A stretch of DNA of 64,000 bases from assembly GCF_023898865.1 (NCBI RefSeq), contig NZ_JAGSOV010000035.1:124001-188000 (forward strand), in the 5' to 3' direction. This document shows, piece by piece, positions 2,570-47,446 of this stretch (position 1 is its first letter; every line of letters starts with the position of its first letter). The position numbers were made by a program, and so were the translations under genes. This stretch comes from Pseudonocardia humida (lineage in GTDB: Bacteria; Actinomycetota; Actinomycetes; Mycobacteriales; Pseudonocardiaceae). The notes beneath the pieces were generated by a model. The model had not been told where the DNA came from. It searched no databases and was given only the letters and a program-made list of their open reading frames with translations.

Positions 2570-3526
2570 ATGGCTCGTCCCGACCCCCTCACCCCGACCA
2601 CCCGGCTCGGCACCGCGCTGCGGCCCGCCGTGGTCCCGCCGCGCCTGCTCGGCCCCGGCGGCGAGGCGGTGACGTGGCGGGCCGGGGGAGCGGGGCCCCC
2701 GACCGGACCACCGGAACGACCCGGCGGCGACGCGCCGCCCCTGCCCTGGACCGAGGACGTCGGCCCGCCCGCGGCGGGTCCCGCGCCGCCGCCGGCGGCC
2801 GACGAGCCGCCGACCGAGCCCATCAGCCTGCTCGCACCGCGGCCCGGCCAAGGGGGCCCGCTGCGGCGCCTGGCCCCGGCCGGCTGGCGCGGAGCGCGGC
2901 TCGATCCCGGTCGGCCCGCCGCGCTGGTGCTCGTCCTCGTCGCGACGGTGGCCGCGGTGGTGGCCGCGGTGGGCGTCTGGTCGGAGCGGCCGCGGGTGGA
3001 ACCGGTCGCCGGGCTGCCCCCGGTCGTGCTGGACGAGCCGGCGGCCGGGGCCGGGGCACCCTCCGACGCGCCCGCGGAGCCGGCCGGGCCGCTGGTCGTG
3101 AGCGTGTCCGGCCGGGTCGCCCGACCCGGCCTCGTGGAGGTGCCGTCCGGGGCCCGCGTCGCCGACGCGCTCGCCGCGGCGGGCGGTGCGCTGCCCGGCA
3201 CCGACCTCACCGGGCTCAACCTGGCCCGCCGGGTCGCCGACGGCGAGCAGGTGGCGGTCGGCGTGCCGCCCGCCCCGGACGCGACCGGACCGGCGCCGGC
3301 GGGCGGAGCGCAGGCCGGTCCGGGGGCGCCGGCAGGCAAGGTCGACCTGAACGCGGCCACCCTCGAGCAGCTCGACGCGCTGCCCGGCGTCGGGCCGGTG
3401 ACGGCCCAGCGGATCCTGGAGTGGCGCACCCGCAACGGCCGCTTCGCCCGGGTCGAGCAGCTGCGCGAGGTCGAGGGCATCGGGGAGCGGCGGTTCGCCC
3501 AGCTCCGCGAGCTGGTGGTGGTCTGA
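2570..3526 (+). CDS. comEA: ComEA-type DNA-binding protein with SLBB and helix-hairpin-helix domains
   Basis: This 318-residue protein has a proline-rich cytoplasmic N-terminus of about 115 residues, one membrane segment near residues 117-136, an SLBB domain (VVSVSGRVARPGLVEVPSG), a low-complexity linker and a C-terminal double helix-hairpin-helix (DLNAATLEQLDALPGVGPV, then VEGIGERRF). ComEA is the membrane-anchored receptor for double-stranded DNA during uptake. The stop shares one base with the comEC start (TGATG), so the two are coupled. The long disordered N-terminus is typical of actinobacterial versions. Confidence 0.92.
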   Translation: MARPDPLTPTTRLGTALRPAVVPPRLLGPGGEAVTWRAGGAGPPTGPPERPGGDAPPLPWTEDVGPPAAGPAPPPAADEPPTEPISLLAPRPGQGGPLRRLAPAGWRGARLDPGRPAALVLVLVATVAAVVAAVGVWSERPRVEPVAGLPPVVLDEPAAGAGAPSDAPAEPAGPLVVSVSGRVARPGLVEVPSGARVADALAAAGGALPGTDLTGLNLARRVADGEQVAVGVPPAPDATGPAPAGGAQAGPGAPAGKVDLNAATLEQLDALPGVGPVTAQRILEWRTRNGRFARVEQLREVEGIGERRFAQLRELVVV

Positions 3527-44110: not shown

Positions 44111-45043
44111 TCACGTCCGACCTCCGTCGACCTGGTCGGAACCGGCGCCGGTGGACTCCAGCACCACCTGTTCGAGGCTGCGCCGCTGCGCGGTCAGCCC
44201 GGTGACCGCGATCCCGGCCGCGACGAGCCGGGCGTTCAGCTCGGCGGGATCGTCGCCGCGCACGACCAGCTCGTCGCCGTCGCGGCCGACGACCTGCCCG
44301 TCCAGCAGCCCGACGACCGCGGCCGGGTCGGGCGTGCGGACGAGCACGCGCCCGGTCGGGGCCCGCAGGACGTCGAGGTCCTCGGTCAGCACGAGCCGCC
44401 CGCGGTCCATCACGCCGACCCGCGTGCAGAGGGCCTCCACCTCGCTGAGCAGGTGGCTGGACAGCACCACGGTGGTGCCGGCGGCGTTCAGCTCGACCAG
44501 CAGCTCGCGCACGTCGTTGATGCCGCGCGGGTCGAGCCCGTTGGTCGGCTCGTCGAGCAGCAGCAGCTCCGGGCCGCGCAGCAGCGCGGCGGCGATGCCC
44601 AGGCGCTGGCGCATGCCCAGCGAGTAGGCCCGCACCGGGCGCCGGTCGACGGCCCCGAGCCCGACCCGCCGCAGGACCTCCTCGACGCGGTCGCGCCGAC
44701 CGCGCCGGCGCGAGCCGCGCCCGGCGGCGTCGAGCAGCCGCAGGTTGTCCCGCCCGGACAGGTGCGGCCAGGCCGCCGGTCCCTCCACCAGCGCGCCGAC
44801 CCTGGGCAGCACCGCCCCCGCCCCGCGCGGCATCGGCCGGTCGAGCAGCCGCACCGTCCCCGACGTCGGGTGCACCAGCCCGAGCAGCATCCGCACCAGG
44901 GTCGTCTTGCCGGAGCCGTTCGGCCCGAGCAGCCCGAACCGGACGCCCCGCGGCACCGCGAGGTCGACCCCGTCGACGGCGGTGACCCGGCCGAACCGCT
45001 TGGTCAGCCCCTCGGTGACGATCACGGTGTCGGTCGCGGGCAT
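44111..45043 (-). CDS. ABC transporter ATP-binding protein
   Basis: This 310-residue ATPase has Walker A LLGPNGSGKTTLVRML near residue 40, signature YSLGMRQRLGIAAALL, Walker B LLLLDEPTNGLDP and H-loop VLSSHLLSEV. A C-terminal tail of about 85 residues follows, as in CcmA-type exporters. The ATG at 45043 shares one base with the stop of the RseB-like lipoprotein gene. It works with the ABC-2 permease just downstream. Confidence 0.9.
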   Translation of the reverse strand: MPATDTVIVTEGLTKRFGRVTAVDGVDLAVPRGVRFGLLGPNGSGKTTLVRMLLGLVHPTSGTVRLLDRPMPRGAGAVLPRVGALVEGPAAWPHLSGRDNLRLLDAAGRGSRRRGRRDRVEEVLRRVGLGAVDRRPVRAYSLGMRQRLGIAAALLRGPELLLLDEPTNGLDPRGINDVRELLVELNAAGTTVVLSSHLLSEVEALCTRVGVMDRGRLVLTEDLDVLRAPTGRVLVRTPDPAAVVGLLDGQVVGRDGDELVVRGDDPAELNARLVAAGIAVTGLTAQRRSLEQVVLESTGAGSDQVDGGRT

Positions 45044-46161
45044 CAGCGCGGCCCCCGTTCGGGCAGCTCGCGCAGCGCCTGCTCCAGCACCGGCGCCGCG
45101 ACGGTGCCCATCATCAGCACGCTCCCGCCGCGCCTGCCGTGCACGAGCACCGACAGCAGGGGGGTGGACAGCGAGACGGCCCGGCCGGTCGGCACGTCGA
45201 CGGCCGTCCCACCGCCGGCGCCCGCCCCGTCGATCGCCTGGCGGGCCACGTCGCCGCTCACCGGGATCAGCGCGAACCCGGCCAGCCCGGAGCCGTACAG
45301 CCCGACGCCGGGCAGCTCGGCGTCCGGGGTGCCGGTGAGCGCGACGCGGTCGCGCCCGGCCAGCCGGGCCGGCGCGGGCGCCGCCTCCAGCACCCGCAGT
45401 GCGCCGCTGATGTCGGCGGCGCCGACGGCGACGGACCCGGCACCCGGCGGCACCGTCGGGGTGACCTCGGCGGGGTCGGGCACCCGGTCGGAGACGTCGA
45501 GCAGCTCGGTGAGCAGCAGCGGGTCGCCGGTGCGCGCGGACACCTCGACCCGCAGCGGCAGCGCTGTCGCCGGGTCGCCCGCGACGTCGGCCCAGATGTC
45601 GACCCGGCCCACGGTGGTGTCCGGGTCGACCGGGGTGAGCCGCAGGCCGGCCGCGTCGCGCCCGGCGATCCGGCGCGCGGGCAGCGCCGAGACCGGATCG
45701 GTCGGGGCCAGCCGCACGATCCGCCGGGCCAGCTCCGGCGGGGCCAGGTCGCCGGCGCGGGGCAGCCGCAGCGGGGTGCGCCCGACGACCCGGGTGAGCT
45801 GCTGGGCGCCGAAGTCCCACGCGTACTCGACGCCGCCGACCAGGTAGGTGCCGCGCTCGCCGGAGTTGTCGACCTGGTCGACGCGCCACCGGTCGGCACC
45901 GGCCACGAAGGCCCGGATGCGGGTGGTCGTGGTCAGCAGCTCCGAGACCGACTCCAGGCGGGGGATCTCCGGGAGCCCGAGCCGCCCGGTGCTCTCCGCG
46001 TAGCCGACGTAGGGCCGCGGCGCCCCGGCGATGCGGGCGCGCAGCCGCTCCGGGTCGACCTCGACGGCCGCCGCGGGCGGGGTGTAGGAGCCCAGCCCGA
46101 CGAGCCCCGCGGCCCCGGCCGCCACCAGCAGCCAGCGCCGGCTGAATCGGTGCGCGGTCAC
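45043..46161 (-). CDS. Exported RseB/LolA-like protein
   Basis: This 372-residue protein has a signal sequence ([19 protein letters not shown]) and a mature region with RLGLPEIPRLESVSELLTTT, RAFVAGADRWRVDQVD and GVEYAWDFGAQQLTRVVG. This strand pattern resembles MucB/RseB and LolA-like lipid-binding folds. No lipobox cysteine is seen in the signal, so it may be secreted or membrane-anchored. The GTG at 46161 gives a canonical signal; an upstream start at 46194 lacks one. It starts an operon with the ABC ATPase and permease. Confidence 0.75.
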   Translation of the reverse strand: MTAHRFSRRWLLVAAGAAGLVGLGSYTPPAAAVEVDPERLRARIAGAPRPYVGYAESTGRLGLPEIPRLESVSELLTTTTRIRAFVAGADRWRVDQVDNSGERGTYLVGGVEYAWDFGAQQLTRVVGRTPLRLPRAGDLAPPELARRIVRLAPTDPVSALPARRIAGRDAAGLRLTPVDPDTTVGRVDIWADVAGDPATALPLRVEVSARTGDPLLLTELLDVSDRVPDPAEVTPTVPPGAGSVAVGAADISGALRVLEAAPAPARLAGRDRVALTGTPDAELPGVGLYGSGLAGFALIPVSGDVARQAIDGAGAGGGTAVDVPTGRAVSLSTPLLSVLVHGRRGGSVLMMGTVAAPVLEQALRELPERGPR

Positions 46162-46225
46162 GTGGGGCCACGTTGCCAGTTGAGCTGTGAACAAACCGTG
46201 GGGATCAACTCAGCTGCGGCACGGG

Positions 46226-46297
46226 CACCGCGCACACCGGTTGGCCGCCGCGCACATGTCGGGACGTGTGCGCGGTGACCACCAGGTGTGCGCGGTG
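46226..46297. repeat. Four 20-bp-phased copies of a 12-bp motif in inverted orientation
   Basis: CACCGCGCACAC occurs at 46226-46237, CGCCGCGCACAT at 46246-46257, and the reverse complement GTGTGCGCGGTG at 46266-46277 and 46286-46297. All four begin exactly 20 bp apart, two facing one way and two the other. They lie between the divergent RseB-like gene and hrcA, about 130 bp before the hrcA start. The array looks like an operator for cooperative binding of a dimeric regulator. Confidence 0.7.
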
Positions 46298-46426
46298 TCC
46301 CACGAGCGGCAGGCGCCCCGGAGCGCAGAACCCGTCCGACGGCCCGGGGGCATCCTGCACCGGCGTGTGCGCCCTCCGCACGGCTTAGACTGGGAGCAGG
46401 CCCGTCGAGCCAGGGAGGTGCGTCGC

Positions 46427-47446
46427 GTGAACGCCGACGAACGTCGTTTCGCCGTGTTGCGGGCGATCGTCGCCGACTACGTGGCCACGCACGAGCCGGT
46501 CGGCTCCAAGATGATCGTCGACCGGTACAACCTGGGCGTCTCCAGCGCCACGGTCCGCAACGACATGGCCGTGCTGGAGGAGGACGGGCTCATCGTCCAG
46601 CCCCACACCAGCGCCGGGCGGGTGCCCACCGACAAGGGCTACCGGCTCTTCGTCGACCGCCTGGCCCAGGTCAAGCCGCTGTCGGCGGCGGAGCGGCGGG
46701 CCGTGCAGGCGTTCCTGGACGGCGCCGTCGACCTCGACGACGTGCTGCGCCGCAGCGTCCGGCTGCTGGCCCAGCTCACCCGCCAGGTGGCCGTCGTGCA
46801 GTACCCGACGCTCACCCGCTCCACGGTGCGCCACCTGGAGATCGTGCAGCTCACCCCGGCGCGGCTGATGCTCGTGCTGATCACCGACTCGGGGCGGGTC
46901 GACCAGCGCGTCGTCGACCTCGGCGAGGTGCTCACCGACGACCAGGTCGCCCAGCTGCGCGGGATGATCAACGGCGCGCTGGCCGGGCGCCCGCTGGCCG
47001 CCGCCTCGGCCGCGGTGGCCGACCTGCCCGACTCCGCGCCGTCCGAGCTGCGCGAGGTCACCATCACGCTGTCCACGATCCTGATCGAGACGCTGGTCGA
47101 GCACCCCGAGGAGCGGCTGCTGCTGGGCGGCACGGCCAACCTCACCCGCAACGTGGCCGACTTCCCCGGCTCGCTGCGCCAGGTGCTCGAGGCCCTCGAG
47201 GAGCAGGTCGTCGTGCTCAAGCTGCTGGCCTCCGCGCAGGACCCCGGCACCGTCACCATCCGCATCGGCGAGGAGAACGAGGCCGAGGAGATGCGCGACA
47301 CGTCCGTGGTCTCGATCGGCTACGGATCGGGCACGGTGCTGGGGGGGATGGGAGTCCTCGGACCCACCCGGATGGACTACCCCGGTTCGATCGCGGCGGT
47401 GCATGCGGTGGCCCGGTACGTGGGTGAGATCCTTGCTGGACGCTGA
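46427..47446 (+). CDS. hrcA: Heat-inducible transcription repressor HrcA
   Basis: This 339-residue repressor has a winged-helix N-terminus ([20 protein letters not shown] and [19 protein letters not shown]), the segment [15 protein letters not shown] and the GAF-like C-terminal domain with [20 protein letters not shown]. HrcA represses chaperone genes through CIRCE elements. GTG 46427 has GGGAGG 9 bases upstream. It precedes dnaJ in the same order as in mycobacteria. I find no CIRCE upstream of it. Confidence 0.95.

Follow-up and report, generated by a model that had tools for sequence, protein, structure and literature searches.

What is the role of four 12-bp boxes that stand in front of hrcA in Pseudonocardia humida, phased at 20 bp and arranged in mirror orientation? 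The preliminary description of this DNA had taken them for an operator dedicated to hrcA and the divergent operon. The window, i.e. the whole stretch of DNA analysed here, is 64,000 nucleotides long. The features around the boxes are the following.

44111..45043, minus strand: ABC transporter ATPase, a neighbour (PF00005, E 2.9e-30)
45043..46161, minus strand: exported protein, 'RseB-like' in the preliminary description; open reading frame with an uncertain start codon
46223..46300, no strand: mirrored four-box array, probably a solo copy, with its dyad between 46261 and 46262
46226..46237, minus strand: outer left box, exact
46246..46257, minus strand: inner left box, two mismatches
46258..46265, no strand: central linker GTCGGGAC, the usual centre in this genome being GTCNNGAC
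46266..46277, plus strand: inner right box, exact
46286..46297, plus strand: outer right box, exact
46427..47446, plus strand: hrcA, recognized by its translation; a neighbour, not thought to be part of the system

The boxes start at 46226 (-), 46246 (-), 46266 (+) and 46286 (+), and all three intervals are 20 bp. The motifs were thus found as first reported, two per strand around one dyad. Boxes 1, 3 and 4 are exact, and box 2 (CGCCGCGCACAT) carries two mismatches. The plus-strand copies 3 and 4 had been called the exact reverse complement of the first two, which holds with respect to copy 1; copy 2 deviates, and its description as 'CACCGCGCACAC-like' was correct. The inverted arms (46223-46260 and 46263-46300) are 38 nt each, 84% complementary and 2 nt apart. 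A degenerate four-box template of 48 positions matched the site with 0 mismatches, and the next best site in the window had 15, shifted overlaps of the array being excluded. In five first-order Markov resamples of the window the best site had 14 or 15 mismatches. When the 64-kb window was scanned for mirrored four-box arrays with periods of 15-28, irrespective of sequence, a single array emerged at threshold, namely this one, at period 20. The existence of the array was thereby confirmed.

The proposed local control of hrcA was evaluated on relatives' loci. The gene was matched in 59 of 62 genomes of mixed kinship, and the loci of 29 of the 35 same-genus relatives with a match were sampled. 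The array was absent from all 29, the very kind of observation that the preliminary description had named as speaking against its proposal, and a role in hrcA control was not borne out. The RseB-like gene still adjoins hrcA in 12 of these loci; the exported protein so labelled gave no Pfam match at E 0.001. A single box with 11 of 12 positions lies over the hrcA start in two relatives' loci (L116 and L118) and does not form an array. The array stands between divergent genes, at 97 and 192 bp from their predicted coding ends, a position that would suit an operator for hrcA and the divergent operon. Its absence at every same-genus locus examined, together with its being one of about 70 copies in the genome, makes this reading hardly credible, and the local operator was rejected as a candidate; the array is probably no hrcA operator. 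The operator recognized by HrcA is CIRCE, TTAGCACTC-N9-GAGTGCTAA, which is likewise an inverted repeat near hrcA. Unlike the array, it had 0 matches in the window with up to 3 mismatches, in agreement with the earlier remark that the motifs do not resemble it.

The genome of P. humida was found to hold a dispersed family of such arrays. The genome contains 91 copies of the box GTGTGCGCGGTG and 0 of the same pattern in backward order, and about 70 mirrored cores were counted against 2 for the control, mismatches being allowed. The genome search for box pairs at 20-bp spacing, recommended at the outset, gave the exact direct pair 10 times and the control 0 times. Sixty further loci were taken, and 55 elements, the window array included, were accepted by our criteria. 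Most of them are ordered - - + + at 20-bp steps, and some have extra boxes on one side, at 19 or 20 bp. The centre is usually that given above, and of the two linkers the right-hand one varies less. No known Rfam RNA reached its gathering score in 11 array-bearing loci. Some copies share a tail between loci on one flank, of 0 to about 900 bp and containing other GC-rich palindromes, and three loci (L049, L062 and L076) share 1.1 kb at about 88% identity, with three arrays.

The long-tailed arrays (L062:2740-3892, L049:2841-4017, L076:2884-3929, L058:2036-3169 and L086:2924-3944) have tails in which several further GC-rich palindromes, such as those around GCCCCTGCCGTC and GAAGAGCGCCTCC, form a BIME-like mosaic. 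One tail portion (query 264-470) stands alone at several places in genome G054.

A covariance model (R1) was built from the 55 elements. The window array belongs to the best-scoring class of its matches in the own genome (G000:C1:170226-170297). With matches listed for both strands, the model was found in at least 52 of 62 same-genus genomes, the own one included, and in the family in 13 of 249 genomes, in 3 of 46 genera. Box sequences vary from species to species, so that searching relatives for the exact motif was initially misleading: the exact box pair occurs in only 2 of 149 genomes. When the array and its tail were used as a DNA query, array matches appeared in many congeners, in which the architecture was the same and the box different, for example GTGTGCACGGTG or GTGTGTGCGGTG, GTGTGTGCGGAG and GTGTGCGAAGTG. 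A scan of named genomes returned 27 stretches. Five of these are arrays, two in P. lacus and three in Pseudonocardiaceae Dino_bin20, and the other 22 lie in unrelated organisms, the four inspected (L124, L126, L135 and L139) having two or three boxes. The Dino_bin20 arrays (L254 and L142) appear to belong to another genus of the family, so the arrays are not strictly confined to one genus.

In three congeners (G056, G005 and G036), pairs of array matches about 1 kb apart were found to flank a gene of about 300 codons (~295 aa). PADLOC models of AbiEi matched all 20 aligned members, the first with E 1.2e-17 over residues 2-163. Pfam AbiEi_4 gave weak matches, 13 of 20 members at E 0.1, and the first member remained below the curated cut-off. 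On these profile matches the bracketed family is AbiEi-like, with a predicted N-terminal winged helix. The C-terminal third has the residues E185, D218, E229, D231 and K235 invariant in 20 sequences, a set of acidic residues and a lysine that may resemble those of a PD-(D/E)XK nuclease. This part had no Pfam, NCBIfam or PDB profile match, and the PDB profile search of the protein gave nothing relevant (best E 0.63). The gene was matched in 57 of 62 genomes in a genus-wide protein search and in 208 of 397 genomes of the order. Some genomes, e.g. G016, G040, G041, G044 and G055, have the gene and no match to the covariance model; G034 has arrays and no AbiEi-like gene at E 1e-15.

Among the best 30 gene loci, 17 had arrays on both sides, three a weak one-sided match and 10 none. 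Twenty further paralogues gave a similar picture, with arrays on both sides in 11, on one side in one, only weak ones (above E 0.1) in three and none in five. For comparison, 1 of 30 hrcA loci had an array, namely that of the window. The bracketing was also evaluated with a model-free scan for mirrored four-box arrays at periods of 15-28, applied to 330 bp on either side of the gene at 80 loci, of which 29 belong to three other families of the order. With the period left free, 20 came out best in 108 of the 160 gene flanks and 19 in 29 of them; the corresponding numbers were 3 and 2 of 57 hrcA flanks and 4 and 2 of 157 stretches taken 700 bp further out. A score of at least 48 out of 72 was reached by 128 of the 160 gene flanks, 5 of the 57 hrcA flanks and 14 of the 157 outer stretches. 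Both sides agreed on a period of 19 or 20 at 58 of the 80 gene loci, against 0 of 28 control pairs; 22 gene loci lacked a matching 19/20 period on the two sides. Bracketing arrays thus occur beyond the search box and beyond the genus. A subgroup of units had 19 bp as the best period on both sides (L300, L303, L313, L314, L316, L318, L319, L321, L323, L328, L348 and L360).

The same scan was run on unbiased stretches of 400 kb. In G582, a genome of another family, two arrays reached score 56, both with period 20, and the remaining 13 periods yielded none. One of the two has boxes that resemble those of that genome's unit (L345), and it sits between two stop codons. In the 400 kb of G033 no array reached score 56, though covariance-model matches exist in this genome.

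The cognate gene of P. humida is found in unit L173 (gene at G000:C128:56871-57659), whose arrays, at L173:1871-1942 and 2950-3021, match the box of the solo arrays, i.e. those without a gene. The gene (L173:2057-2860 and 1972-2094) has a frame break near its 3' end, and the last roughly 40 residues are in another frame; this could be either real decay or an assembly error. A second AbiEi-like gene of the genome, L299 (G000:C29:38829-39695), has arrays on both sides with a different box, about GGCTGCGACGAC. A further array was seen 129 bp beyond one of those that flank L299.

Whether box and protein are associated was evaluated in 40 units whose two sides both have period 20; 28 of these units are from the genus. 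Within a unit, the consensus boxes to the left and right of the gene shared 10.7 of 12 positions, compared with 5.5 for boxes from different units. Box similarity correlated with protein similarity (Mantel r 0.68 for the 40 units and 0.42 for the 28 genus units; 0 of 2000 permutations as high), a correlation that could partly reflect shared ancestry. The values were 0.48 (0.30 within the genus) for the first 70 residues and 0.55 (0.24) for the last 100. As r is lower for the first 70 residues than for the whole protein, the signal cannot be assigned to the presumed DNA-binding domain in particular. Paralogues within one genome bear different boxes. Units stand beside the same NUDIX gene in nine genomes, with at least two box classes, and beside a PhoH gene at no fewer than 17 loci of another family, again with differing boxes. 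Solo boxes agreed with the units of their own genome at 10.5 of 12 positions, compared with 9.4 (sd 0.3) for shuffled genomes (0 of 5000 as high), the solos having been found with queries derived from the box of P. humida, which favours similar boxes. In this comparison 14 genomes contributed 15 groups, each of 1 to 53 solos, the solos of G036 being split in two by their boxes. The solos of G004, of G021 and of one G036 group fitted the sampled units of their genome poorly (7, 7 and 9 of 12).

These data also bear on the suggestion that the arrays are insertion elements of an ordinary, non-autonomous kind which an unrelated transposase moves, with the AbiEi-like gene as a passenger or frequent neighbour. 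The 1.1-kb copies with three arrays and the amplification in one genome would fit such elements. On the other hand, the units keep their NUDIX or PhoH neighbour while the boxes differ, and the box follows the gene, which leaves this suggestion distinctly improbable. In addition, the search covered the Y1 transposase family and found one such gene in the own genome, L166 (G000:C59:39379-39732), IS605-like by its surroundings and, in our reading, divergent from a TnpB-like frame. Its 3.35-kb locus contains no array, only a single box with one mismatch. A mobiliser of the RAYT or IS200 type was rejected, because the only Y1 gene of the genome is unlinked to the arrays.

The architecture of the arrays, their dispersal, the bracketing of the gene, the association of gene and box and the position at 3' ends described below were observed directly in the sequences. 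Considering them together, it is likely that the array in the window represents a solo copy of an array to which an AbiEi-family protein would bind and whose complete unit would be array, AbiEi-like gene, array, in a system working like REPIN/RAYT. Each gene lineage would have its own box sequence, present four times per array in mirrored order with a spacing of two helical turns. The boxes are presumably bound by the AbiEi-like protein, as their association with it and the analogy with studied AbiEi proteins suggest. Streptococcus agalactiae AbiEi binds, as monomers, two inverted repeats of 23 bp in front of its own gene, and Mycobacterium tuberculosis Rv2827c has four repeats of about 23 bp, all occupied at once, with four bound species, according to the available excerpts of the report (PMC7319586). 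From these excerpts and the arrangement found here we infer one AbiEi-like monomer per 20-bp box and about four per array, which would lie on one face of the DNA around the dyad. The initial proposal of phased mirrored sites for an oligomerising DNA-binding protein seems in this respect the best reading, period 20 being preferred over 13 others.

The AbiEi-like gene would stay at the same chromosomal place in the long term, its boxes changing together with the protein, for which reason solos that resemble the resident unit are most readily taken as copies of its arrays. Gene-less arrays are found at tens of sites in each genome, for the most part right behind a stop codon and frequently where genes converge. 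Spread or maintenance in trans by the protein, as is thought for REPINs and RAYTs, is favoured since the solos follow the box of the resident unit, since an amplified set, with tails in common, is present in the own genome, and since no array place is common to the own genome and the sampled relatives' loci. The arrays may affect the transcription of neighbouring genes.

The position of the solos was determined with gene calls from our own simple codon-usage gene caller. Of the 55 own arrays, 54 are placed between predicted genes or at contig ends: 24 convergent, 23 tandem, 4 divergent, among them the window copy, and 3 at contig ends. Where both neighbours were known, 24 of 51 arrays had a convergent setting, compared with 39 of the 216 gaps in these loci that measure 60 bp or more. 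The 45 arrays of relatives comprised 17 convergent, 20 tandem and 3 divergent cases; of the other five, 2 lie within predicted genes and 3 at the ends of contigs. The array centre was found 30-90 bp past a stop codon in 79.5% of 44 relatives' solos (random intergenic points, 18.5%) and in 51.9% of 52 own solos (random intergenic points, 15.5%). As an array reaches 36 bp to each side of its centre, many begin within some 20 bp of the stop. Four arrays were found at the same place in two species each, which shows many solos to be stable. No shared place was seen between 38 sampled loci of relatives and 61 of the own genome.

The very regular placement after stop codons, the excess of convergent settings and the four places shared by two species would also be expected if the solos were operators kept by selection as a regulon of insulators, the AbiEi-like protein blocking read-through between the (often convergent) genes as a protein-dependent bidirectional terminator. 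This is the main rival. It is compatible with copying and may coexist with it, and we consider it possible but rather doubtful: relatives and own genome have no array place in common in the sample, the tails common to own loci look like copying, and intergenic 3' ends are also the places where an insertion is least harmful.

The arrays could alternatively be plain RNA hairpins that act as bidirectional intrinsic terminators with no need of a protein. The RNA of the window array folds into a stable hairpin at -69.5 kcal/mol (z -7.0), and solos of the family tend to lie after stop codons, as intrinsic terminators do, the window copy itself lying in a divergent gap. Between species, paired positions also change together: 86.6% of cells were paired against 81.5% when shuffled, and 21 of 32 pairs had changed on both sides. 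Within genomes the result was different. The pairing of arms, observed versus shuffled, was 289 vs 286 (sd 2.9) for inner and 266 vs 257 (sd 8.9) for outer boxes in relatives, and 566 vs 570 (sd 4.7) and 574 vs 561 (sd 4.4), respectively, in the own genome, so that only the own outer boxes co-vary above shuffled arms. A wobble asymmetry that would mark an RNA strand was absent, G-U and A-C being about equal (44 and 35 for inner, 16 and 24 for outer boxes). RNA or cruciform pairing as the sole constraint was rejected on this within-genome result, co-variation between species notwithstanding. Moreover, a hairpin requires neither the same box twice per arm at period 20 nor arrays that bracket one gene family. 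The pure hairpin is less likely, and we regard it as improbable; the repetition of the box along the arm needs another reason. BIME/REP-type palindromes and bidirectional terminators are, like the arrays, palindromic, intergenic and enriched between convergent genes. The arrays differ from them in the identity of the boxes within an arm, in the fixed period and in the tie to one gene family.

The system postulated here was compared with the two known ones that it recalls. In REPIN/RAYT systems, dispersed extragenic palindromes are accompanied by a low-copy gene beside matching repeats, which does not itself multiply, and a genome may have several flavours, each with its own gene and presumed to co-evolve with it, as described in the excerpts of PMC3116915. 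The arrays of P. humida are likewise dispersed extragenic palindromes, their about 70 copies lying within the range of tens to hundreds seen for REPINs, matching repeats stand beside the gene, and several flavours with their own gene occur in one genome, with the solo flavours fitting apart from the exceptions given. In contrast, RAYT is a Y1 (HUH) transposase, the repeat there is a 16-mer REP pair instead of a mirrored tetra-box array with a 20-bp (or 19-bp) period, and the arrays here stand on both sides of the gene. As the protein is AbiEi-like and not a Y1 transposase, the system would work like REPIN/RAYT without being a member.

With AbiE type IV toxin-antitoxin systems it shares an AbiEi-family protein and inverted repeats before the protein's own gene, as far as the excerpts of PMC7319586 describe them. 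It differs in the second array behind the gene and the tens of solo copies, in sites 20 or 19 bp apart in a single mirrored set, and in a long C-terminal part outside the antitoxins' models. The six neighbours of four units that were scanned with Pfam were NUDIX, glutaredoxin, UbiA, aldolase/lyase, acyl-CoA dehydrogenase and PhoH, and the AbiEii (DUF1814) toxin gene was not among them. The arrays thus resemble AbiE operators, and toxin-antitoxin status is unsupported.

Searches of the open-access literature for AbiEi together with REPIN, for AbiEi together with DUF559 and for Pseudonocardia palindromes found no report, and no such repeat-plus-AbiEi system appeared among the entries listed by broader ones. 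We tentatively suggest that a previously undescribed class of actinobacterial two-part repeat systems may be present here, in which an AbiEi-like, possibly nuclease-bearing protein with fast-drifting DNA specificity flanks its own gene with cognate four-site arrays and disperses copies of these to sites behind other genes, an analogue of REPIN/RAYT derived from an antitoxin-type protein. If so, dispersed palindromic repeats with a dedicated gene would have arisen on at least two occasions, starting from unrelated proteins, and the orphan AbiEi-family genes, a large group, would gain a testable target in the arrays at their own borders. Intergenic repeats of these genomes would be explained, with a caution against reading each of them as a local operator. 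The 40 box-protein pairs lend themselves to deciphering the code by which AbiEi winged helices recognize DNA.

Some minor features of the own elements were also recorded. The bases flanking the centre of the 55 elements are T...G in 24, C...A in 15 and C...G in 13 cases, and T...A in only 1; exactly one half usually reads ATG/CAT beside the centre. The array at L059:3013-3133 has ten or so boxes, five of them exact with an identical linker, as if expanded by slippage. Upstream of hrcA, at 46403-46410 of the window, a TAGACTGG-like sequence is kept in most of the 30 hrcA loci, as judged by eye, and looks like the -10 region of the hrcA promoter.
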